This document shows positions 1 to 59,965 of a stretch of DNA of 64,000 bases, piece after piece. The stretch is from Zygnema cylindricum (lineage: Eukaryota; Streptophyta; Zygnematophyceae; Zygnematales; Zygnemataceae), in the NCBI GenBank assembly GCA_037447655.1, contig JBBHKE010000159.1, forward strand, positions 126,402 to 190,401, written 5' to 3'. Each line of letters starts with the position of its first letter. Positions within the stretch are counted from its first letter, which is position 1. The notes beneath the pieces were generated by a model. The model saw only the letters and a list, made by a program, of their open reading frames with translations. It had not been told where the DNA came from and searched no databases. The translations under genes and the position numbers were made by a program.

Positions 1-285
1 AGTATCGTCTAAGACAGTCCAACAGTCTCGGTTCCGAGGTTCTTTTGTCACCTCCCCCTAGAAGGCCTCCCTTCTTCTTCCGTGAACACCAGTGTTTTCA
101 CTTTCCTCTCTGACTCCTACTCAGGAGACTCCTTCTCCTACCCCTCGAGAAAGAACTGCTCTCAGACCTCCTCTTCCTTTAGGGATCCTTTGTTTTCACA
201 CGAGTGCCTCGTTAAGCCCTTCGAGGTGTGCTTTCCTACCTAGTAAGTGAGTCCACGTAGGTACGTATACACACCACTATTAGTG
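1..285. other. Exact mirror-image (reversed, not complemented) copy of 358-642
   Basis: Read backwards without complementing, these 285 bases are identical to 358-642: base 1 matches base 642 and base 285 matches base 358. I checked it line by line and found no mismatch. The source, 358-642, is genuine minus-strand copia gag/protease sequence that aligns with relatives at 22370-22700. Bases 286-357 between the arms are normal element sequence. No replication or recombination pathway makes a long true mirror, so a data-handling artefact or a deliberate edit is the likeliest origin. The stretch encodes nothing recognisable on either strand. It may extend left of the window. Confidence 0.97.
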
Positions 286-1009
286 ATTTGTAGTAACCAG
301 TCTCCTATCCCCATACTCAATCTCTACAATAGGGATCGTTCTTAGCTTAGTAAAGAGGTGATTATCACCACACATATGCATGGATGCACCTGAGTGAATG
401 ATCCATCCTTTCGTGTGGAGCTTCCCGAATTGCTCCGTGAGCACACTTTTGTTTCCTAGGGATTTCCTTCTCCTCCAGACTCTCGTCAAGAAAGAGCTCC
501 CCATCCTCTTCCTCAGAGGACTCATCCTCAGTCTCTCCTTTCACTTTTGTGACCACAAGTGCCTTCTTCTTCCCTCCGGAAGATCCCCCTCCACTGTTTT
601 CTTGGAGCCTTGGCTCTGACAACCTGACAGAATCTGCTATGAAGTGTCGCGACTTTTTGCAAAAGTGACAAAGACCCATTGGGGGCCTCGGTGGTGCAGA
701 CTGATATCTCTCTCCTTTGTACAGTGTCTTCGAATCCTTCCCCCATCAGTTTCCTCCTACAGCTAGAGCTTTGATGATCTTTCCCCTTCTCCTAATCTCA
801 ATTATGTTCTCGTGCACAAGTATCATCTTGACCACTTTGTTCCACTTCCACGAATTGTGAGTCATTTCCAATACTCGGTACACTATGATTTCATACTCGT
901 CGGGTAACTTAATGATGAGAGTGTTGACTTTCATCTTCATTTTACCTATCCACTCGGCACTCTCAATCTCCATATAAAAACAAGAGAGATCATTATAATA
1001 GAATAACAT
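286..1009 (-). pseudogene. Copia element A, gag C-terminal part and protease (broken)
   Basis: Minus-strand reading from 1009 gives Gag (LPDEYEIIVYRV, similar to LPDEFENIVNRV in element C), then a CCHC zinc knuckle near 635-680 whose last Cys is Ser (CHFCKKSRHFIADS). An acidic linker follows, then the retropepsin region near 390-415 with HSGAS in place of D-S/T-G. The protein runs over at least two frames. It continues directly from the Gag N-terminal part at 5217-5732, because element B is inserted between them. The remaining pol lies left of the window, or was lost where the mirror sequence begins. The copy is dead. Confidence 0.8.
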
Positions 1010-2183: not shown

Positions 2184-3729
2184 GGTTATGGGCCCACCAT
2201 CTAGGGTGCCTATGTTCGATGGAACAGACTTCACTTATTGGGAGTTTACTATGGAGAGATTGCTTTTCAAAAAGCACTTATGGGGAATTGTTTCGGGACA
2301 AGTGAGATGTCCACCACCTAGCTTTGGAGGAGCTTACTATGGAGAATCATCTGAGGCTGCCCAAAATATCAACCAGAGTTCAGATGCAACGGAAGGTGAA
2401 GGGAAAAACCGTTCCGTGGATGGGGAAATAGTGGAGAAGGAAAAAGGGACACCTATGGTGAGGGGAGCTAGGCTCTCAACTATGGTACCACTTGTAGGGA
2501 TTAAAACTGAAAAAAATGACAGAAAAATATGGGAATACAAAAACACTATAGCAAAACATCTCATACTTAGATACGTGTCTAAGTCCACAGCTATCACTCT
2601 TTTAAGTCTAACCAAGTGTTCAGAGATATGGTAAGCACTAAGTTAGATTTATGAGAGTGAGAATGTTCAGAGGCATCAATTAGTAAAACAGGAAATAGAG
2701 GCCTATATTTATAAAGGCGGTAGCATAATAGAGTTTTGAAATGATATTGCTGCGTTATATGTTGAGCTTACTAGTGCGGGATATGTAGAATCTGAGGAGA
2801 GTAAGATTAATACATTACTTATGAAACTCCCAGATGAGTACGAAAATAGCATTTGTCGTATGCAGGCAATGGATGGCTCCTCATAGACTTGGAGCTTTAC
2901 CATGGGGATAATTCTTGTGAGGGAAAGCACTTTGGAGCTTCGTAGGGGAAGGGACAGGGTCAATGCATTTTCAGCTGGTGGTGATTGGCGGAAGCATGAT
3001 GAGAGGAACGGCGGTGACGATCGGAAGCGTGATGAGAGGAACGGTGGTGACGAGCGGAAACGTGATGAGAGGAACGGTGGTGACGAGCGGAAGCGTGATG
3101 AGAGGAAGAAAGACAAAGGTAAACCTTATCGAAACTTTGGTGGAAAGAGAGGGAGAGGAAAAGAAAGGGGAGCTTTGAAAAAGGGGGTTTGTTTCTTTTG
3201 TAGGGAACCGGGTCATTATATGGAAGAATGCCCTTGTTTGGAAAAACTTAGAAGTTGGAATGTGGATGAGGAGGAGGAAGGGGAAGAGGAGAAAAAGGAT
3301 GAATATATTTTAGAGCTTCTCCAGATTAGTAGTATGGGGAAGAGAGAAGAGCACACAGAAATTTCGCGAAAGCAACAATGTGCTTTTGGAGGTATAAGGG
3401 AAGTAAAGAGAGAGGAGATACTTGAGAGAGTTCAAAATATTGAGGATAGTTTCATATATATTTTGGAAATAGAAAATTGGTCGGAAAGGGAGACCTCAAC
3501 GGATTCCGAGGAAAGGGGAGAAGTGAAACTAGAAGGAGTTTTTAAAGATAAGGGAGAAGAGGAATATTTAAAGAAAGGTTTAGGGGAGGAGAAATACTTA
3601 TTGGGAATAAATTTAGAAAGAGAGAGTGGAAAGAAATCCATGGGAGAGAGTGAGGAAGTTCAATTTTTGCGGGTAATGGGTTTGACATCGCTAAAGGGAG
3701 TGATGGTATTTATGAAGGTGTGCTTGTAA
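2164..3729 (+). pseudogene. Gag of element B (zinc-knuckle nucleocapsid, acidic C-terminus)
   Basis: The N-terminus reads MGPPSRVPMFDGTDFTYWEF, typical of copia Gag. Several stops (near 2632, 2737 and 2884) break the middle. From 2902 one frame gives a 33-bp, 11-residue tandem repeat rich in Arg, Asp and Glu (RKRDERNGGDE, about four copies, 2995-3110). A CCHC knuckle CFFCREPGHYMEEC (about 3190-3232) and a Glu/Lys-rich tail follow. The tail ends in LGEEKYLLGINLERESGKK, which matches the RT segment DLGEAKYILGIQVERD of complete copies, so Gag is fused to a pol remnant. Gag forms the particle and binds RNA. Confidence 0.75.
2184..2198 (+). promoter_or_regulatory. Primer-binding site, half initiator tRNA-Met type (element B)
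   Basis: GGTTATGGGCCCACC directly follows the 5' LTR. It is the reverse complement of the anticodon arm of plant initiator tRNA-Met as I know it (GGTGGGCCCATAACC). This implies priming from an internal cut in the tRNA, as known for Drosophila copia, rather than from its 3' end. The ATG at 2188-2190 pairs with the CAU anticodon and begins the conserved Gag peptide MGPPSRVP. Confidence 0.8.
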
Positions 3730-4042
3730 AAGGGTTAGTATCTGGGTGTTAGTTGCAGATTGGAGATGGGGCTGGCTGTTTGGATCGCAATAGGGAAATC
3801 GGTTTGTGTGTGGATGAAAAAGTGATGAGGTGGAAAAAATCTTTGTTCGATTTATGAAAAGTGGGATGTTAAATAAAATGTGTGATGCAATTATTATTTC
3901 AGTTCATTTAATGCACTGTGTTAAATACTTAAGTTTTATGAAAAGAAAAGGAAAAAGGAAAAAAAAAAGAAAAAGGGGAGGTGGTTTTTGTTTACTTTTT
4001 GTGGAAGTTGAAAGGAAAAAAAAAACTAGAAAATAAGGGGAG
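3730..4042 (+). pseudogene. RNase H remnant and polypurine tract of element B
   Basis: Readable pieces (LQIGDGAGCLD, KSLFRFMKSGML, DAIIISVHLMH) line up in order with RNase H parts of complete copies (VGDGACCWSSK, VKSLLGELSHLKSG, DNEAAIAISANPKHH). The catalytic residues are gone. A/G-rich low-complexity sequence follows. The polypurine tract CTAGAAAATAAGGGGAG abuts the 3' LTR and primes plus-strand synthesis in this class. Element S holds the same remnant, so it was already present in the mobile ancestor. Confidence 0.65.
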
Positions 4043-5211
4043 TGTTGATATTTGTGTATTTTCTAGGTCTGTAATAGGATAGAAAAAGGCAGAGGTAGTC
4101 TGCCTCTAAAGCCCCCACACTTGTTGTAGTCACTGAAGGCTGGATAGGGAGCTAGAGCCATGACTACCTAAGCTCTCTAGAGAAGACAGGGGGTAAATTA
4201 GTAAGACTTACCAAAAGGTAATTGACGGACCCAGGAATTGATCCTGGTACCTACCGTCCGTCAATCTGCCGTTAGCCGGTGACTTTATCCATTTAGACTA
4301 GAGCTGGTATTACGACGTATGGGGTTTGATAATTATTTAAATAGTTACACGTAGACTAGTTCATTTAACTGGAAATATATACGTATTGCATAGATACAAT
4401 TATGGATAGTACGGAATACAGATTTATTTATTGAAACGGATACCGCGAATTTGGTCTGACCGCGAAACAAATACCGCGCGTCTATTTTCAACGGCTAGAA
4501 ATGTAGCCGGATTTGATCGGACGGCCACGATAGGCGCCGCGATCGCGGGATATGTACTTTTGCCGGTTTGCGGTCATTGCCACATAGGATGACACATGGC
4601 ACGTCAACATTGGATTGCGGCGACACCGGAGATTACGGGAACAAATAGATATGTGACATATGTTGACATTTATGCCCTATCGTACGATTGTCGTACAAAA
4701 AGTACACCAGCACTTGTACTTATCTTTACGCTACAGTGAAGTGATTGGTGCCGTACGTCAGTAGATAGGGTCTTATAGTGAGAATAGGACTTAGAATATT
4801 TTGAGTAGGTAGTCCCCTCTCCCAGAGAGCATCTTGTATAAATGGCTAACTTTGGGAAGCCATAACTATCAATTTACTTGACCATTTTCAGTGATTCTTT
4901 TTGATGCGGACCCAGGGGAGTCCTGGCTACACAGGGTGTAGTTGGTCAGAGTTTTTGTGTGCCAGGGTCGCTGCATTTCAAAGGGAAAGTCAAAGTGGGT
5001 GAATGTGTCCAAATCTTATATTCTAACTTTGCATTTTGTGGTGGAACTGACCACACAGAAAGTGTTATTTCACAAGGGTGAATCTATATTTGGGTTTTGA
5101 TTGTCAAGGGGTCAGTCATTTGGGTTTATATCAAGTTAGGATTCGGCATTATCTAGATTAGCTTCATTGGTTCTGCTTACTGTGAGGGCCAATGGAGGTC
5201 TCAGAGTTTCA
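4043..5211 (+). repeat. 3' LTR of element B
   Basis: Runs from TGTTGATATTTGTG to GAGTTTCA, 1169 bp, followed by the target duplication CTTTC. It matches the 5' LTR closely, with small indels and substitutions. It contains the antisense tRNA-like unit at 4213-4315. Confidence 0.9.
4213..4315 (-). other. tRNA-like unit antisense in the 3' LTR of B
   Basis: Minus strand: A-box-like AATGGATAAAG, then a perfect 5-bp T-stem with 7-base loop (CCAGG ATCAATT CCTGG). Acceptor-like GGTCCGTCAA and a TTTT run at 4213-4216 follow. The layout is the same as in the other LTRs of the window. Confidence 0.65.
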
Positions 5212-7869: not shown

Positions 7870-8705
7870 AGGATGCGCGTTGGCAAGAGAGTCGTATGCA
7901 GGTTTTACAGAGTGGCGCCGAAAGTTAGTTGCACGCGTCACGCAGGAGACGATTGGATTCACCAGATCGGACGAACGAAATTTGAACCGGTTATTCTGAA
8001 AATATATAGTACGGTTTGACGCTATGATCATTGTTTGAATTCTTGCCTACGGAGGCGATTCACCTGGGACCACAAAGCATGATTCACGTGGGACCACAAG
8101 TCGGCAAGAGAAGTTAATGCAGGTATTTCAGAGTTGCGCCGACATCCACGTACACATGTCAAAAATCATACGGGCGGTTTCGGTGAATCTGACGGGCGAA
8201 GAAAGAGTCGGACATTTGGGAGTGTACCGCACAAAATCAAAGGAATGTCGTTGATACGAGACAGATTCGACAAATGCGATTAAGGCGGGGACTCCAATGA
8301 CTGAGTGCGCCGTACGCACTCAGAAAGTTCGTACCATCGACCAACAATCATCTGAACTTTTGCGGCTGATGCTAACTAAGCATCGGCAACATTAGTTGTA
8401 CGGACAATATCTGTAAATATATGGAAAACAATAAGTTAACGTTTAGCGAATTAATTAATCGTGTTTCACTATTCATTTAGCAGCATGTACTAATTAGGTT
8501 TTTGGAGGTATTCACGTTTCAGTAAAGTACAGGCTGGATACTTTGTCGTTAGTCAGGATAGTACTGTTGTACAATCACCCGTATTAGTGTGACCAGTAGA
8601 TACTCACTTTGAGTATATATTTTAGGAATAAGCCAATTTTGTATCATCGAGTTTTGGGATTATGACATTTTAAAGGCATTTTTTGAGAAACTTCCAGTTT
8701 TTTCA
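7870..8705. other. Unassigned non-coding stretch before the gag of C
   Basis: No ORF of note. Two imperfect copies of a unit starting GGCAAGAG and running through CAGAGT-GCGCCGA lie at about 7882-7990 and 8103-8215. ATTCACSTGGGACCACAA occurs twice (8052-8099). The last 200 bp faintly resemble the GTACAGG...TTAGTCAGG part of LTR M. This replaces the LTR, primer site and first third of Gag expected upstream of C. Confidence 0.45.
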
Positions 8706-8710
8706 ACAAT

Positions 8711-10654
8711 ATGGCAGCAAAGCACTTCATCCTACGCCATCTTACTCAAGGACTTGCATGTCCTCATTTGCAGGTAGAAAGGCCATCTAATCTGTGGATG
8801 GCTCTCATAGAGATGTACCAAAGTGGTACAATTCAGCAACAACAACTGGCTGATCAGAAAGTTAAGGAATATGTATACAAAGGGGGGAAAATGTTGGATT
8901 TTTACAATGAGCTTGCTACACTCTTCATAGAGCTAGAGAGTGCGAGAAAAGATTTTAGTGAAAAAGAAAAGGTTAATTGTTTACTGATGAAGTTACCCGA
9001 TGAGTTCGAGAACATAGTCAACCGTGTGCAGGACTTGGAGGACTCGAGGTGGATATGGAACTCAGTGGTAGGGATGATTCTCGTTCAGGAGAATACGATC
9101 GAGATCCGAAGGGGAGGAAAGAGTGGCCAAGCCTTCGCAACTTTGACTGATTGGAGGAACAAGGATTCACGGAAACCGGTCAGAAACTATGGGGGGAGGG
9201 AGCAGAAAAATCAGACCGACGAGTTCGGACCAAGGGCTCCCAAAGGTTTATGTCATTTTTGTAAGAAACCTGGGCACTATATGGCAGAGTGCTCTAAGCT
9301 TACTGAGCTTCGGTTAAAGGAGGGGAAGACCGGTGGTACCCCGAGAGGAAAGAAAAAGGCCCTTGTGACACAAGTACATGAGGCGGAATCCGAGGACGAG
9401 GACGATGAGCTCCTTTTAGATGAGGAGTTGGAGGCGAAAAACGAGGTCGAAATTCCACGAAGGCAAAAATGTGCTTACGGTGGATTGAAAGGTGAAGCAG
9501 GCTGGATTGTAGATTCAAGTGCCTCCATGCACATGTGTAAGGATAGGCACCTGTTCACTAAGATAAGAAATATTCCCACCGTAGAGATAGAGCACGGGGA
9601 TGGGAGGATAGTCACCACTACTCTTGTAGGATCGGTAGATTTGAAAGTGTTAGTAGAAGGAAAGACATCAATAGTAACATTCTTCGATGAATTGTTTATT
9701 TCCGGAGGTGAACAAAAACCTCATCTCTACTTCGTATTAGATGACAAGGGTTTTTTTACTAACACTAGGGAAGGAATCTTTACTGCTAGTTTTGAGGAGG
9801 ATGTCTATTTCTTTGCTGAGAAAGGTAGCCATGGGATGTTTAGGCTCGTTTTAAGTAATAAAAAGAAGAAACTTTATTATGTTGGTGTTCATGATATTAT
9901 GATGTGGCATAAGAGGCTTGGGCATGTGAATCTAGACAAGTTAAGAGAGATGAAAAAGATGGGAGTGGTGGAAAGGATTAAGTTCAGTGAGAATGATAAT
10001 ATAAGTGATTGTAGTGGATGTGCTCAAGGTAAAACACACAAATTACCCTTTCCTAAAACAGCCACCTATAAGGTAGAAAAAAATCTAGATCTAACACATA
10101 CAGATATTTGGGGACCGGCTAAAGTGCCCTCACCGGGGGGGAAGAGATTTATGATGACTATAACTGATGATTGGTCTCGGTATTCCCGAGTGTATTTTTT
10201 GAAAAACAAGTCCGAAGCTTAGGATTGTTTTAGACAATATAAAGCATGGAGCGAAAAACTCCATGAAACTCCAATCAAGAGAATACGGAGTGACAATGGT
10301 GGAGAGTATACTTCTAACCAGTTTGAGGATTTTGTGAGGGAAGATGGGGTCCAACACCAAAAGACAGTTCCAAAAAACTCGGAACAGAATGGGGTAGCTG
10401 AAAGGTTAAATAGAACACTAAGTGATACTGCTAGAAGTATGTTGTCAGATAAGAAGATAGGAAAAAGGTTTTGGGCTGAAGAAATGAACTGTGCTAATTA
10501 CCTAAAAAATAGAGTTTTTACTTCAGCTATAAAAGATCAAACACCTTATGAGAGATGGACAGGCCGGAAACCAGACATATCTCACTTAAAGGTTTTCAGC
10601 AGTCAAGTATTCAGTCTAGATACAGATCGGTCTGAATTAGAAGCTAGATCCTAA
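8711..10654 (+). pseudogene. Element C Gag-protease-integrase part (copia)
   Basis: Gag starts at MAAKHFILRHLTQ; about 130 N-terminal residues present in A and D are missing. Domains in order: UBN2-type Gag; CCHC knuckle CHFCKKPGHYMAEC (about 9250-9292); protease with DSSAS for D-S-G (about 9510); GAG-pre-integrase H-x-H/C-x2-C (WHKRLGHVN..., CSGCAQGK, 9903-10034); integrase start (DIWGPAKVPS, DDWSRYSRVYF). One in-frame TAG at 10220-10222 interrupts integrase. The same frame then continues through DNGGEYTS and QNGVAERLNRTL to 10654, where a frameshift follows. Confidence 0.85.
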
Positions 10655-22061: not shown

Positions 22062-23555
22062 ACCACCATAGTAAGCACATTTTTTTTCATTACTTTGGTT
22101 AAGCCTAAACATTCCTTAGCTACCCTTATCTGTTGTGAAGTGGACTTCATTTCCGTACTTAGCTGCAAATACTCCAATTTAAGTAAAGGTATCAAAATCC
22201 TTGTCATCTAATACAGAAGTAGACATAAGATTTTTACTCATCTGAGGAATGTAGAGCACATCTGAGAAGGTGGGTATGGAAGTCTTACCCACCACTAAAA
22301 CTTTTAGATCTAAAAAGTTCACTAGATCTGTGGTAACTACTCTCTCATCCCCATACTGTATTTCTAGAGTAGGGATCTTTCTTAGCTTAGTGAAGAGGTG
22401 CCAGTCCCGACACATATGCACAGATGCACCTGAATTGATGATCCATCCTTCCTTTAGAGCTTCCCGAATGGCTCTAATGGCACACTTCTGTTTTCGAGGA
22501 ATCTCCTTCTCTTCCAAATTTTTGTCTAGGAGAATTTCCCCATCCTCCTCCCTAGAAGACTTGTCCTCCTCAGTCTCTCCTTTTACTCGTGTGACCACAA
22601 GTGCGTTCTTCTTCTCTCCGGAAGAACCCCCTCCTCGGTTTTTTTGAAGCCTCGACTTTGACTGCTTAATGCAATCAGCTATGAAGTGTCTTGGCTTTTT
22701 GCAGAAATGGCAAAGACCCTTTAGAGGCATGGGTTCACCAGATTGATCCCCTTTGAAGATGTTGTACGGCTTCTTCGGGTACTTCCTCCACCGGTCTGTT
22801 CCGGCAGCTAGAGCTTGAATGCTCTTTCCTCCTCTGCGAAATCTCGAAGGTGTTCTCCTGAATGAGTATCATTCGGACCACTGTGTTCCACTTCCAAGAG
22901 CTATCATCCATTTCTTGCACTTGGTACACTATGTTTTCTTACTCCTCAGGCAACTTCATGATGAGAGTGTAAACTTTCATCTTCATTGTGCCTTTCCCAT
23001 CCTGCACTCTCCATCTCCATATAAAAGCAAGAGAGATCATTACAGTAATCTAACATCTTCCTTCCTTTGTAAGTATAACTCCCCAAACTTTGCTCCACCA
23101 GCTAGAGCTCTTGAATGGTACCAACTCCATAGATCTCCACTAAAGTAATCCACAACTCCTCGGCCTTCAAGATGTGAAGATGAGAGGTCGCCAAAGCTAG
23201 GGTGAGGTGCCTCAGAATGACATGCTTGGCATTCATGTTGGTGTACTCCCACATTTTAATATTGTTTTCCTCGGTCTTCACGACCACCACTCCAAGTGCC
23301 ATGGCAATAGGAGTGCGAGGTGTCTCCTTTCCTTTCCCCTTTTCAAACACACTGCTGTCCCCATCGTCTGTCTCCTCCGTTAGAGCAAATGCTGCTAAAG
23401 AAAACCTGAATCCATCAAAACCTGGTGGAGTCCCCTGAGATGGACGTTTCACTCGTCCACTGACGATACCCCAGTATCGTTTTTCACACAATGCCCCTGT
23501 CATCATGGTTTCCTAGTAAATGAACCCAGATCTGTTAAAGATGGGCACCCTAGAG
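22062..23555 (-). pseudogene. Element D Gag and protease
   Basis: Minus strand: ALCEKRYWGIVSGRVKRP, WEYTNMNAKHVILRHLTLAL, then YQVQEMDDSSWKWNTVV, the knuckle CHFCKKPRHFIADC (about 22665-22705), and a Ser/Glu-rich linker. Protease reads GWIINSGASVHMC (N-S-G; the catalytic Asp is lost). VDFLKVLV-like and FSDVLYIPQMSKNLMST sequence follows. A stop at about 23515 (TAG in YWE) and a gap between 22930 and 23100 show decay. It continues at 16355 after element E. Confidence 0.8.
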
Positions 23556-41270: not shown

Positions 41271-42367
41271 GTTGTAAAAGTTTCGTTGACCGATGCTCAG
41301 ACTCCTTAGGAAATGGAAATTGTAGAAGCTAATGGATTTATTAGTATTTTCTAGGTCTAAATAGAAATAGAAAGAAGCCGAGGCAGTCTATCTCTAACTT
41401 CTCTCTCCAACTCTCAAACTTGTCGCAGTCACTGAGAAGTTGGAGAGGAAGCTGAGCCATGGCTACCTTGGCTATCCTGAAGTTTACGGGAATTTAATAT
41501 TAGGGTTTATTTATTTAATTAAAAGTTATGCGCCGGCGGCAGGATTTGATCCCTGTACCTACCGGTCGGCAGATAGGAAATAGCCGGTAGCCTTAGCCGT
41601 TAGGTCAAGCTATAGTGTTAGGTACTATATAGTTTGATAATTATTTAAAGATGTATACGTACGATAAATTCATTTAACTGTTACGGATTACGGGATACAT
41701 AGATCCGGTACGGATGACGGTACGGATTACGAATCAATACCGCGCATTTGTTTCGGAAGTGAAATAAATACCGCGCATGTATTTATTACGGCTACGATTA
41801 AATCTGAATTTAATCGGACGGCCGGAATTAGCGCCGAGATCGCGGAGGAAGATTTTGGCGGTTTGTGGCCATCGCCACATCGGATGACGCGTGGCAAAAT
41901 TCCGTTGGATTGTAGAATCTCCGGAGATTATGGCACCGAATCCGGATTTGACATGTGTCGACATTTAGGCCATGTCGTACAATGTCCGTACTGAAAGTAC
42001 ACCGGCGGCTGTACTTTTGCGTACGGAACTCAATTTTGATTGGTTCCGTACATCAGTAGATAGAGTCTGTGAGAGAGATAGGACTTAGAAAAATTAGAAG
42101 ATAGGACCCTCTCTCCCAAAGAGCTTCTGTACAAAAGGTCAACTTTGACCCTCCATAACTTACTGCTCAGGGGAGCAAATTCAGAGATTCTTTTTGCTAC
42201 TGACTCAGGGGAGTCTTGCCTTCACAGGGGTGCAGGTTGTCAGGGCTTTTGTTTGCCAGGGTGGCAGTTAGTTTTGCTTAAACACAAAGGGGTCAGGATT
42301 ATCCTAGAGGCTTCTTGGAAGTTGTAAAAGTTTCGTTGACCGATGCTCAGACTCCTTAGGAAATGGC
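41271..42367 (+). repeat. Truncated C-type LTR flanked by a 46-bp duplication inside Q
   Basis: LTR sequence 41321-42320 (TGTAGAAGCTAATGG to GAGGCTTCTTGGAA) lacks the last 45 bp or so. GTTGTAAAAGTTTCGTTGAC and the following 26 bases occur at 41271-41316 and again at 42321-42366. These are the same piece of Q's GAG-pre-integrase coding sequence. A 46-bp duplication is far longer than the 5 bp made by the other insertions here. Confidence 0.82.
41521..41612 (-). other. tRNA-like unit antisense in the LTR inside Q
   Basis: Minus strand: ACCTAACGGCTAAGGC A-box-like; B box GGATCAAATCC (41542-41552 complement); CTGCCGCCGGCGCA, then a TTTT run (41521-41524). Confidence 0.58.
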
Positions 42368-43821
42368 AATCTGTGGATTTTGCCTAAAGCGCAACCATCG
42401 CAAGTTTTGACCGGCCCATCTGTGATTGATACACCCTCTATTTTTCCATCAATGACCATTTTCCTCAAACTATCATAATTTACATGGCCTAATCTTTTGT
42501 GCCACAACTCATCTGAGTGCAAAACATCATTCTCCTTTGTATTAGCCATATCCATGCGATACATCTTGCTACTATCTCTAGTACCTGTAGCCGCAACCTT
42601 GTCATTTTTGCTAACAACTTGCCGACCATTTTTCAAATTAACCTCAAAGCCTTTTACCAACGACGTAGAAAACATATTTTTCTTAAAGTCAGGCACAAAT
42701 AAGACATTGTGAAGAGACCTTTCAAGTGCTTTTCCCTCTACATCAACTAGTAAGGACACATCACCCACAGCACGAGTTTGGACACTTATTCCACAAGCAT
42801 AATAAATATTTTTCTCCGGCGTTGCTTTCAGATTTTTGAAGATGGCCTTGTTCCAGCACATGTGGGCTGACGCTCCTGTATCCATTATCCATCCGGGGTC
42901 CTTCGCGCCCTCCATTGCAGCCGCCATAGCGAATAGATCCGTATCGTCCTCCGTAGAAACCATCAAAGTCTCGTCTTGGAGCGACGAAGAAGCCGAAAAT
43001 AGTGCATTTCCACGAGGTGTAGGCCCCGTGAAGCCTTTGTAAAACGAGCTTTGTTGCCATCCCGGCCTGTATAAACCTGTATCGTTAGCTTTTTTAAGCT
43101 TAGGACAGAATTTGTATCCATGACCTCTCTCACTACAATAAAAGCATGCATTGTTTGATTGTCTATTTCCACCTTGATTAAACTGTCTGAACTGATTAAA
43201 TTGATTCCTTTGCTGATTAAACTGTCCTTTTCTCTCAAAGTCCGAATTAAAAGCCTCTACTTGCTCAACATTGAGAATATTAGACGTAGCTTCCTCTTCT
43301 AGTAAAATATTGATGGCTAACTGCAAAGTCCAGCTAGCTTTATCTTTTTGTTTGAGCATGTCAGATGCTCCTTTCATACTACGAGGGAAACCCCTCATGA
43401 GAAATGCTGCCTGCTGAAAAAGAGGAAACACCCCACCCGCACAAGCATGTGCATCTACAAGGATACGAAATTTGTTAGAATATTCAGCCATTGTACCGCC
43501 AGTGTACTTATAGTCCCAAATTTTTCCAGCCAATAGAAGCTCTCCTTGGACATTGGCCCTTTCATAATCACTTTTAAGAGATTTCCAGATATCAATTGTT
43601 TTTTTCATCTTTATCCGAGACATAGCTAAGCTCTCAGATATACAAAACTTCAGAATAGAACGAGCTTGCATATTTTTCTTAGACCATGATGGATCAGATT
43701 CATCCAGCGAACCATCCAATATATCCAAAAGATTGACATTTTCAAAATGTGTCTCCACCATATCCGCCCAGTAAACATACTCATCCCCGGAAAACATAGG
43801 AATTCTTGATGACAGGCCCAT
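42321..43821 (-). CDS. Element Q Gag, protease and GAG-pre-integrase (open 505-residue frame)
   Basis: The longest intact coding frame of the window. Gag begins MGLSSRIPMFSGDEYVYWAD, with UBN2-type Gag to about residue 190 and an Asn/Gln/Phe-rich stretch. The CCHC knuckle CFYCSERGHGYKFC lies near residues 225-240. Protease follows with intact DTGASAHMC near residue 335 and LHNVLFVPDFKKNMFSTS after it. GAG-pre-integrase is WHKRLGHVNYDSL with CDGCALGK near residues 440-485. Pol is cut just after by the inserted LTR and its 46-bp duplication. Gag would assemble particles; the protease would process the polyprotein. Confidence 0.87.
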
Positions 43822-43826
43822 AACTG
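43812..43826 (-). promoter_or_regulatory. Degenerate primer-binding site of element Q
   Basis: Minus strand GCAGTTATGGGCCTG, matching GGTTATGGGCCCAC at its core (GTTATGGGCC). The ATG is the Gag start. Decay or drift from the initiator tRNA-Met match. Confidence 0.5.
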
Positions 43827-43829
43827 CCG

Positions 43830-44420
43830 TTGTTCAAATGCGTAGTGGAGGAGCACGAAGTAAGACATATCCGAGCTATCAAATCTACTCAAACAATCGA
43901 AAGCAAGTGCTCACTAATTCTTATACAAGCATTATCACAAAACTCTACCAGTATAGAACACGAAAACCCCGTTATAACACGGACTAACAACACTCAAGAT
44001 AAACAATGTATGTTTTTGAATAATGCTTTCGCTTACAAGTCCGGATACATGTTAAGAGTCCAAGCTCCATGGTGTAACCGCAACACCATCGATTTGAGAG
44101 GTACATCAACCACCGCTACCACTAACGTTGCTACCATCGAAGATACTAGCACACGAAAGCATCCAATAGAATCGATCATTCCAGCTCTATCCCAGTGTAA
44201 TCACATTAAGAGTATTAGATTGCTAAACCGAATCACCATATCAAATATAATCATGGTTGCCTTGTCCTCTTTTGCCTGCAGCCTCATGATGCCTGCTCGC
44301 TGTATAGAGCCATCTGCTCGCCGCTGCTCGTCAGCGCAGCTTCTTTAGGGCAGCATTCACAGTAAGCATTGTACGCCTGGTGCTTGTTGTGCCAGTTGAT
44401 GAAAGCTTTCCAAAAAGACA
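43830..44420 (-). repeat. 5' LTR of element Q (diverged E-type)
   Basis: Minus strand starts TGTCTTTTTGGAAAGC, like the 3' LTR remnant of Q. It shares with E-type LTRs the CAAGTGCTCACTAATTCTTA, AACACTCAAGATA and GAGAGGTACATCAA segments. The GCAGC array is short (44285-44345) and the 11-bp array is absent. Confidence 0.68.
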
Positions 44421-45298: not shown

Positions 45299-45930
45299 CT
45301 CCCCTTATTTTCTAGTCTATTTTCCTTTCAACTTCCACAAATAAGTAAACAAACACCCCCTCCCCTTTTTCCTTTTCTTTTTCCTTTTCCTTTCATAAAA
45401 CTTAAGTATTTAACAGAGTGCATTAAATGAACTGAAATAATAATTGCATCACACATTTTATTTAACATACCACTTTTCATATATCTGAGCAAAGATTTTA
45501 TCCACTTCATTACTCTTTCATCCACACACAAACCGATTTCCCTCTTGCTATCCAAACAACCAGCCCCATCTCCAATCTGCAACATACACCCTAATGCTAA
45601 CCCTTTTACAGGCACACCTTCATAAATACCATCACTCCCTTTAGCGATGTCAAACCCATTACCTGCAAAAAATGAACTTTCCTCACTCTCTCCCATGGAT
45701 TTCTTTCCACTCGCTCTTTCTAAATTTATTCCCAATAAGTATTTCTCCTCCCCTAAACCTTTCATTAGATATTCCTTTGTCTCACTTATCTTTAAAAACC
45801 TTTTATAGTTTCACTTCTCTCCTTTCCTCGGAATCCGTTGAGGTCTCCGTTTCCGACCAGTTTTCTAATTTTAAAATACCTGTAAAATTATCTTCATTAA
45901 TTTTATGTTTCCCGTTTTCACTTATGGATC
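45299..45930 (-). pseudogene. Element S RT/RNase H remnant
   Basis: Minus strand MKGLGEEKYLLGINLERASGKK, GNGFDIAKGSDGIYEGVPVK, LQIGDGAGCLDSKREIGLCV, KSLLRYMKSGML, DAIIISVHLMHSVKYL. The segments and fusion points match element B, showing a shared internal deletion of pol. Starts at the polypurine tract (CTAGAAAATAAGGGGAG, minus strand). Confidence 0.7.
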
Positions 45931-47120
45931 ATAGATCTGACTTTCTCATTTCTAAGTCATACACTTGACACTCCTCAACATCCTCAAGTACCTCCTCTCT
46001 CTTTACTTCCCTTATACCTCCAAAAGCACACTGTTGCCTTCGAGCAATTTCTGTGTACTTTTCTCTCTTCCCCATTTTACCGATGTGAAGAAGCTCCAAT
46101 TTTTCTTCATCCTCTTTCTCCTTTTCTTCTTCGTCCTCCTCATCCACATTCCAACTTCTAAGTTTTTTCAAACAAGGGCATTCCTCCATATAATGACCCG
46201 GTTCCCTACAAAAGAAGTAAACCCCTTTTTTCAAATCTCCCGTGTCTTTTCCTCTCCCTTTTTTTCCACCAAAGTTCGATAAGGTTTACCTTTGTCTTTC
46301 TTCCTCTCATCACGCTTCCGCTCGTCACCACCGTTCCTCTCACCATGCTTCCGCCAATCACCGTCGTTCCTCTCATCAAGCTTTCGCCAATCACCACCAG
46401 CTGTAAATGCATTCACTTTGTCACTTCCCCTACGAAGCTCCAAGTGCTTTCCCTTACAAGAATTATCCCCATGGTAAAGCTCCAAGTCCATGAGGAGCCA
46501 TCCATTGCCTGCATACGACAAATAATGTTTTCGTACTCACTTGGGAGTTTCATAAGTAGTGTATTAATCTTACTCTCCTCAGATTCTACATATCCCGCAC
46601 TAGCTAGCTCAACATATAACGCAGCAATATCATTGCAAAACTCTATCATGCTACCGCCTTTATAAACGTAGGCATCTATTTCCTGTTTTACTAATTGCTG
46701 CCTCTGAATAGTCTCACTCTTATAAATCTGAATTAGTGCTTCCCATATCTCTGAACTCTTGGTTAGACTTAAAAGAGTGATAGCTATTGACTTAGACACA
46801 TATCTAAGTATGAGATGTTTTGCTACAGTGTTTTTGTATTCCTATATTTTTCTGTCATTTTCTTCAGTTTTAATCCCTACAAGTGGTACCATAGCTGAGA
46901 GCCTAGCTCCCCTCACCATAGATGTCCCTTTTTCCTTCTCCCCTATTTCTCCATCCACAAAGAGGTTTTTCCCTTAAACTTCCGTTGCATCTGAACTCCG
47001 GTTGATATTCTGGGCAGTCGCTGATGATTCTCCATAGTAAGCTCCTCCAAAGCCAGGTGGCGGACATCTCACTTGTCTCGCAACAATTACCCATAAGTGC
47101 TTCTCGAAAAAGCAATCGGG
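45930..47120 (-). pseudogene. Element S Gag (gag-only family)
   Basis: Minus strand: RQVRCPPPGFGGAYYGESS, KHLILRYVSKSIAITLLSLT, MAIEFCNDIAALYVELASAG-like sequence, LMKLPSEYENIICRMQAMDG. About three copies of the RKRDERNGGDE repeat follow (46290-46400), then the knuckle CFFCREPGHYMEEC and a Glu-rich tail. The first 30 residues of Gag, the primer site and the 5' LTR are missing; the copy is cut at about 47120. A frame change lies near 46440. Confidence 0.76.
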
Positions 47121-58097: not shown

Positions 58098-58429
58098 ACT
58101 GCAATTCTGTGACCTCCATTGGTGCACAAAATGAGTAGCTTACTTTAAGCCTCTAGGTTAATTTAAAGTGCCTCTCTTTCTTCCCTAACAACTGCCACCT
58201 TAGCAGACAAAATCCTTTCTTCTGGCAGGTTAGGCAGCCATGGCTCAATCTCTCTCTAACCAGTCTTCAGTGATTGCAACAAGTATGGCAACTAGAGAGA
58301 GAGAGAGAGCTGAGCTTAACTATCAATTAAGTCTTTTTATTTGTATCTTAACCCAGAAAATACAATAAAAACCTCAAATTTCAACACGTACTCAACGAAT
58401 ATGTAGCAAAATTCTTCCCTAACAACTGC
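58098..58429 (-). repeat. Deleted A-type LTR P with tandem-duplicated part
   Basis: Begins (plus strand) TGCAATTCTGTGACCTCC and jumps to the LTR start region ending AAATTTCAACACG, with the middle, including any tRNA-like unit, deleted. The segment from TTCTTCCCTAACAACTGCC is present twice, at 58178-58411 and again from 58412 (period 234 bp). The second copy is split by solo LTR O and resumes at 59742. Confidence 0.78.
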
Positions 58430-59741
58430 TGTTGTTTTTGAAAACTTAGTTTCGTGCGTACGGAGCGTTTCGTGCGTGCGCGTGTTCGCGTGCGTGCGCA
58501 TTTACGCGATGTAGTGTGGAGGTTCGAATAGATTTGCGGATTGGGGGAGTAAATGTACAAAGAAAATTAAATGTACGTGAAGGACTAATTTAGTGGCGCG
58601 GAATGCGCAATGTAAATGGACGGCGGATCGCGAAGCGATCCGATTTGAATTTTTCGAAGTGTGAAAATGTACGCATGGCGTACGAAACAAAATGCGACAA
58701 GCGCATTTATTACAAGGGACGCGCTTGCGGTACGAAAATGATTTCGGCTGTACGATATTATTTCGGCAAGTGGACGTGAATTCACTTCGCGACAGTTGTG
58801 GGATATTTAACGACACGCGCAGATTTCACTTGGATTTTTGTGACCACGTGGCGCGACATCGAAGGTGCCGAATAAAGAGCTACGGACGGCGGACAAAGGT
58901 CGCCGCTATTTTCAAATGAGTGGGGAGCGAAATCACGTCAAATCACAAGAATCATATTTTGGACGTCCCGGATTCTTTGACGAAAATCAAGGAGTTTCGC
59001 TGAGTGACTCAGCATGACTCAGCATGACTCAGCATACGATTATATGAGATTGTGTGTACTTCAAAATATTTGAAACAACATTGTCTTGTCTTATGTGTAT
59101 TAATAAAATAGAATTGATTGTGATATTTATTTTTATGTGGTCAATCAGGGTCTCGACACTTTAATTTATGTGTCGCGTTTGCAGACAAGTGTACGCTTAC
59201 GATTGCTTGACTTTCAGGTGTACGCTTACGATTAGTTTGATTTAATGACAGTTACGTAATTTACGTTGGTTATTTTGACACTTAGTGATTTGTTAACAGC
59301 TCACAAGTGTATATATAGATTTGAGCTTCATTAGAATAATCATTAATGCTGGTTAGTAAAGTGGGGACCGAAGATGTAAACTTTTAGGGTTGCCGATTAG
59401 GTCATGCATTTGAGTAATATGTTTATTGATATACTTTTGTTTATCTAATGTTTATGTGAGATTGCACTCTTTTTGTTATTATTTATTTATGTTATTTTAT
59501 GGTTGTTTGATATGCATTATTTATGCATTTGTCCTAGGGTTTGCTTATGTTGATAATTCCATCAAACCTTAGATGTTGTCATAGGGTTTATTTATGTTGA
59601 TTATTCCATGAAACCCTAAATGTTGTTGTATGTTAAATGGAGGATGCATTTCAAATGATTGTTCATTGGCCTAGCTTCGCTTAGCTTCTTGCATGATAGT
59701 TTGGGTGGCTTCTGCGGTCTATTTTAGACCAAAGAACAACA
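58430..59741 (+). repeat. Solo LTR O with target duplication ACTGC
   Basis: TGTTGTTTTTGAAAAC to CAAAGAACAACA, 1312 bp, flanked by ACTGC at 58425-58429 and 59742-59746. It contains the hairpin CGGATCGC GAA GCGATCCG (58624-58642), three TGACTCAGCA units (59005-59034), two GTGTACGCTTACGATT repeats and two AGGGTTT...ATTCCATSAAACC repeats (59534-59615). Confidence 0.92.
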
Positions 59742-59965
59742 ACTGCCACCTTAGCAGACAAAATCCTTTCTTCTGGCAGGTTAGGCAGCCATGGCTCAAT
59801 CTCTCTCTAACCAGTCTTCAGTGATTGCAACAAGTATGGCAACTAGAGAGAGAGTGAGAGCTGAGCTTAACTATCAATTAAGTCTTTTTTTTTGTATCTT
59901 GACCCAGAAAATACAATAATAACCTTAAATTTCAACACGTACTCAACGAATATGTAGCAAAATGC
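59742..59965 (-). repeat. Second copy of the duplicated LTR P segment
   Basis: ACTGCCACCTTAGCAGAC to GTAGCAAAATG. Near-identical to 58190-58411, with a few substitutions. It abuts element W at about 59966. Confidence 0.85.

Follow-up and report, generated by a model that had tools for sequence, protein, structure and literature searches.

The first 285 bases of the 64-kb stretch of DNA analysed here (the window) are an exact mirror image of a neighbouring sequence, and it is very probable that they are not biological sequence and represent a string that was reversed without being complemented. When positions 1-285 were reversed as a string, uncomplemented, and compared directly with positions 358-642, the identity was 285/285, as a first-pass annotation of this DNA had reported together with the 72-bp spacer between the arms; in the 24 neighbouring registers compared, 62-87 of the 285 positions matched. 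The mirror identity breaks at 286/357, where A stands against G, and the 72-base spacer (286-357) has no mirror symmetry of its own, with 16/72 positions equal. Because the outer end of the left arm coincides with window base 1, where it is cut by the window edge, 285 bases is a lower bound, and the mirror arm may extend beyond this minimum length. Under a simple composition model, about 10^-159 exact mirror runs of this length are expected, and none of 200 randomly chosen 285-base stretches, set ungapped against the 1500 bases after it, gave a mirror match above 117/285. The 285/285 identity together with these two values rules out a chance origin. No tandem repeats were found in 1-1100 at a score of at least 30, and the numbers of distinct 4-, 6- and 8-mers in 1-285 (145, 255 and 276) are in the ordinary range for the window, the means of 650 window stretches being 150.6, 259.0 and 273.5. 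The mirror is thus not the symmetry of a simple repeat, and a low-complexity or microsatellite mirror was ruled out on the same results.

In an exact-match search of the whole window, the 285-base pair was the single exact mirror pair of at least 24 bases, and no other exact match in the window, of whatever kind, is as long. The longest exact direct repeat spans 117 bases and the longest exact reverse-complement repeat 68 (exact matches of at least 24 bases), complement-only exact matches of at least 24 bases were absent from the window, and the next-longest mirror outside low complexity has 17 bases. We also searched the window with its own reversed string, allowing gaps and with the low-complexity filter on, and considered the best 15 matches, three of which were the mirror pair or the copy of the source arm (358-642) that lies near 22 kb in the window. 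The other twelve covered 17-61 aligned bases with E values from 0.002 to 0.99. Given the single exact mirror of at least 24 bases and the shortness of these other matches, a wider habit of string reversal across the window was ruled out. Matching the reversed sequence to itself exposed the mirror at once, whereas it went unseen in a search for repeats in direct and reverse-complement orientation. A 30-base sequence across the junction had no match in viral_contigs, a viral collection, and 26 bases taken from the genuine arm had none in genome_contigs, a prokaryote collection; since both may exclude the window's own or near records, these negatives carry little weight. With 0 mismatches in 285 bases, the 95% upper bound on divergence between the arms is approximately 1%. 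The second copy of the copia fragment at 22 kb differs by 18-25% depending on the part, and the long direct repeats near 1.0-2.2 and 4.1-5.2 kb (families D1-D4) differ by 4-8%; the mirror event, if real, would rank among the newest in the window.

Homology to this second copia fragment, which lies at 22325-23070 on the minus strand, is collinear with 285-1023 at 76% identity and served as the reference for genuine sequence, distinguishes the two arms. The whole of 286-1023 is 75-82% identical, by part, to the copia gag/protease copy at 22.3-23.1 kb, all on the minus strand. The spacer at 286-357 is genuine copia protease-region sequence in normal orientation and agrees with the 22 kb copy at 59/72 aligned bases; the source arm at 358-642, a degraded copia gag containing a zinc-knuckle-like stretch and followed by the start of the protease, agrees at 221/284; and the remainder of the degraded gag fragment at 643-1023 agrees at 286/381 aligned bases. 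The minus-strand frame at 280-540 matches Pfam Pol_BBD (28.6 bits, narrowly over the cut-off of 27; E 1.8e-6), and the match, at residues 46-83, lies wholly inside 286-540. ORF 22179-22868 on the minus strand of the 22 kb copy matches the same family with an E value of 5.8e-16. The minus-strand frame at 746-1030 gave a weak Retrotran_gag_2 match (E 0.0019, 18.1 bits) that falls below the cut-off of 27, and no Pfam matches were found for the middle minus-strand frame at 365-745 or for the two open plus-strand frames of 1-285. The zinc-knuckle-like stretch was seen by eye in the translation of the frame at 365-745; this stretch and an HSGAS motif, likewise seen by eye in the translated frames, resemble a zinc knuckle and a protease motif, respectively.

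Past the break point, the 22 kb copy runs on into protease-region sequence. Aligned with this continuation, 1-285 scored -63, which is no better than 300 shuffles (mean -63.6, SD 7.5), whereas the control stretch 286-570 scored 154 against its 22 kb counterpart. A local search of 1-285 against the same continuation returned chance-like pieces only, the best of 12 bases with an E value of 0.47, and a search against both strands of the window gave the self-match only at E values up to 1e-3. As a reversed string or, equally, as a complement-only string, 1-285 finds both 358-642 and the 22 kb copy, and 1-273 read backwards matches 22410-22684 at 78%. An ordinary inversion or reverse-complement duplication was ruled out, since the arm matches only in these two forms. 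In its dinucleotide asymmetries 1-285 behaves as its source does when read backwards, with CG/GC counts of 10/5 against 5/10 in the source arm; because this is implied by the exact mirror, it adds no separate evidence. The homology switch at 285/286 is abrupt. Judged from the copia collinearity of 286-1023 and the lack of homology of forward 1-285, the latter is the odd arm and occupies the place where normal protease-region sequence should continue. Set against Copia-type LTR retrotransposons (Retrotran_gag_2 / Pol_BBD), 286-1023 is a degraded fragment of such an element, whereas the mirrored arm carries no trace of one unless it is read backwards. The fragment is bounded by 1-285 on one side, and on the other side the homology to the 22 kb copy stops at 1023. 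Two further statements of the first-pass annotation are borne out here, namely that 358-642 is real copia gag/protease sequence, given its agreement with the 22 kb copy and the Pol_BBD match of the overlapping frame, and that 1-285 is the odd arm, given its shuffle-like score. The hexamer GTGATT spans the junction (283-288) and also opens the source arm (358-363). As GTG is palindromic as a string, only the following ATT counts, which would be shared by chance in about 1 in 64 cases, and it may be fortuitous or may reflect the way in which the break arose.

The first-pass annotation had also proposed that the T/C-rich parts of the mirror could form a triplex (H-DNA) and that a mirror of this length would be unprecedented. 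In PMC11879447, a mirror repeat is defined as a reversed, uncomplemented same-strand copy with arms of at least 10 bases and a spacer of less than 8, and the working definition of H-DNA is more than 90% purine or pyrimidine with a spacer of less than 8 bases. Measured against these definitions, the arms at 1-285 and 358-642 qualify as reversed, uncomplemented copies (285/285), and the 72-base spacer is too long. The arm at 1-285 is 62% pyrimidine overall and 83% in its best 30-base stretch, both short of the 90% in that definition, and its longest pure pyrimidine tract has 16 bases. With 62% pyrimidine and a 72-base spacer, the mirror falls outside the published definition of H-DNA, and the triplex proposal is not supported. 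The likeness to the H-DNA mirror repeats described in that text lies in the arrangement of two same-strand arms that flank a spacer and are each other's reversed string; the difference is that here the sequence is mixed, the spacer has 72 bases and there is no tandem repeat. The largest H-DNA motifs of primate genomes often overlap microsatellites, according to that paper, and its search was restricted to spacers of less than 8 bases and hence blind to a mirror laid out as here. Since the same paper classes as H-DNA a mirror repeat of the human genome whose arms have 797 bases each and stand one base apart (PMC11879447), length alone is not without precedent. Judged from titles and the beginnings of abstracts, none of the papers listed in the literature searches dealt with a long mirror of coding sequence. 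The claim stands for a mirror of this particular kind, as no long mirror built from ordinary, non-repetitive coding sequence is known to us.

Watson-Crick copying is antiparallel, and inversion, fold-back and template switching all give reverse complements. By this reasoning, a mirror made in one step needs either parallel templating or the reversal of a text without complementing, and string reversal without complementing is an easy programming slip. We propose that 285 or more bases of this locus would have been reversed as a string without complementing somewhere between the reads and the window, possibly during assembly, gap filling, scaffolding or later data preparation, or by a deliberate edit, and that the reversed string would then have been written in front of base 286. 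The anatomy of the feature, which reaches the very edge of the window, points to software or a person as the probable maker of the reversal and to one of these steps. The exact mirror and the abrupt break at 285/286 argue for such an origin, in agreement with the earlier view that an artefact or an edit is likeliest, whereas the 100% identity of the arms could also have come from a real event of very recent date. The layout resembles fold-back duplication artefacts, which commonly arise from snap-back copying or missed hairpin adapters, in its order of arm, spacer and arm and in its perfect identity beside the source, but those are reverse complements and here the complement step is absent. 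Reflection padding at the window edge was ruled out by reasoning, as padding leaves no 72-base spacer. Among the papers listed, a report of such a mirror artefact in an assembly was not recognisable from titles and the beginnings of abstracts. One paper that uses the phrase 'reversed but not complemented' (PMC8920891) reportedly concerns human regulatory elements and reporter assays, to go by its title and the start of its abstract.

Within this non-biological explanation, we give about an even chance to an assembly or gap-filling fault in the source record, in which a read or contig piece would have been placed reversed and uncomplemented. The fold-back-like layout with its 72-base spacer, the location at the edge of the window and possibly of a contig, and the repeat-rich surroundings with many similar copies are in line with such a fault; on the other hand, the papers listed name no assembler that does so, and we know of none that reverses without complementing. 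A deliberate edit or a later data-preparation step, by which a reversed piece would have been set at the start of the window, for instance as a test item, is a candidate that we rate somewhat under even. The exact match, the start precisely at window base 1 and the single instance in 64 kb fit an edit well, although a test item would more naturally be placed inside a window than at its edge. If it was an edit, the mirror would be absent from the public record, and in this the edit differs from the source-record fault; the sequence itself offers nothing to tell the two apart, and the small remainder of our confidence in a non-biological cause goes to causes that we do not name. That the organism really carries mirrored DNA, however it came about, is in our estimate very improbable. 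A possible route is that at least 285 bases were copied once from a parallel-stranded template into a complement-only strand, the complement of which would be the mirror, and that this was joined beside its source. In favour of real DNA stands the sequence as given, and by reasoning a single parallel-templated copying event gives exactly this arrangement. However, a literature search for parallel-template synthesis found no paper that contained all of its terms together, the arm is ordinary mixed sequence, so that stable parallel or triplex pairing is not expected, and 285 error-free bases would be required; moreover, we know of no polymerase or other enzyme that copies a parallel template. 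The specific claim of error-free parallel templating in a living cell, by which true mirror DNA of 285 bases or more was produced and ligated 72 bases from the source, is slightly less credible still. That the mirror built up gradually, through mutation, slippage or selection for symmetry in the manner of the purine/pyrimidine mirror repeats of H-DNA, has next to no probability. Such a gradual origin could draw on the four pyrimidine tracts of 11-16 bases in each arm and on the long mirror repeats known in the human genome (PMC11879447), but the arm has no tandem repeat, ordinary k-mer diversity and only 62% pyrimidine, and these composition, k-mer and tandem-repeat results refute it in practice. 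In addition, the source arm is 78% identical to an unmirrored copy, which means that only one arm was ever odd.

The mirror itself is thus confirmed as an observation, and we consider it almost certainly not a feature of the organism's biology. If it is an artefact, as we favour, it provides a clean and easily scanned marker of string-reversal faults. If it were real, it would overturn the rule of antiparallel template copying and imply a copying mode outside all polymerases known to us.

Beyond the copia fragment, the window contains several other repeats. Direct repeats at 1019-2181 and 4051-5209 are 92-96% identical, approximately 3,030 bases apart and LTR-like. The first of them begins where the copia gag fragment ceases to match its 22 kb copy, at 1023, which suggests a nested insertion. 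A tandem repeat with a 33-base spacing is present at 2977-3107, the 65-base copies of which are 86-89% identical to the first; it lies within an open frame with a zinc-knuckle match of 20.1 bits, the Pfam cut-off being 20.8. Two long open copia gag/protease frames at 8687-10222 and 42304-43833 have distant relatives only. With scoring confined to the 8000 candidates that had most words in common, the first (8687-10219) matched 75 proteins at 20-44% identity, all distant copia relatives, and the organisms named among the listed matches were all plants (Malus, Mikania, Tanacetum), so that the host, too, is probably a plant. The second (42304-43833) matched four proteins, also distant copia relatives, at 23-35% identity in a very large protein set. 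As the two frames are only 20-44% identical to their relatives, the host genome seems to be poorly represented in the protein set searched. The window contains no Rfam match at the gathering score and no tRNA. The element at 3066-3917 recurs in reverse orientation at 45417-46342, with exact stretches of up to 68 bases, and the two copies of the longest exact direct repeat, at 58187-58303 and 59738-59854, lie 1,551 bases apart.
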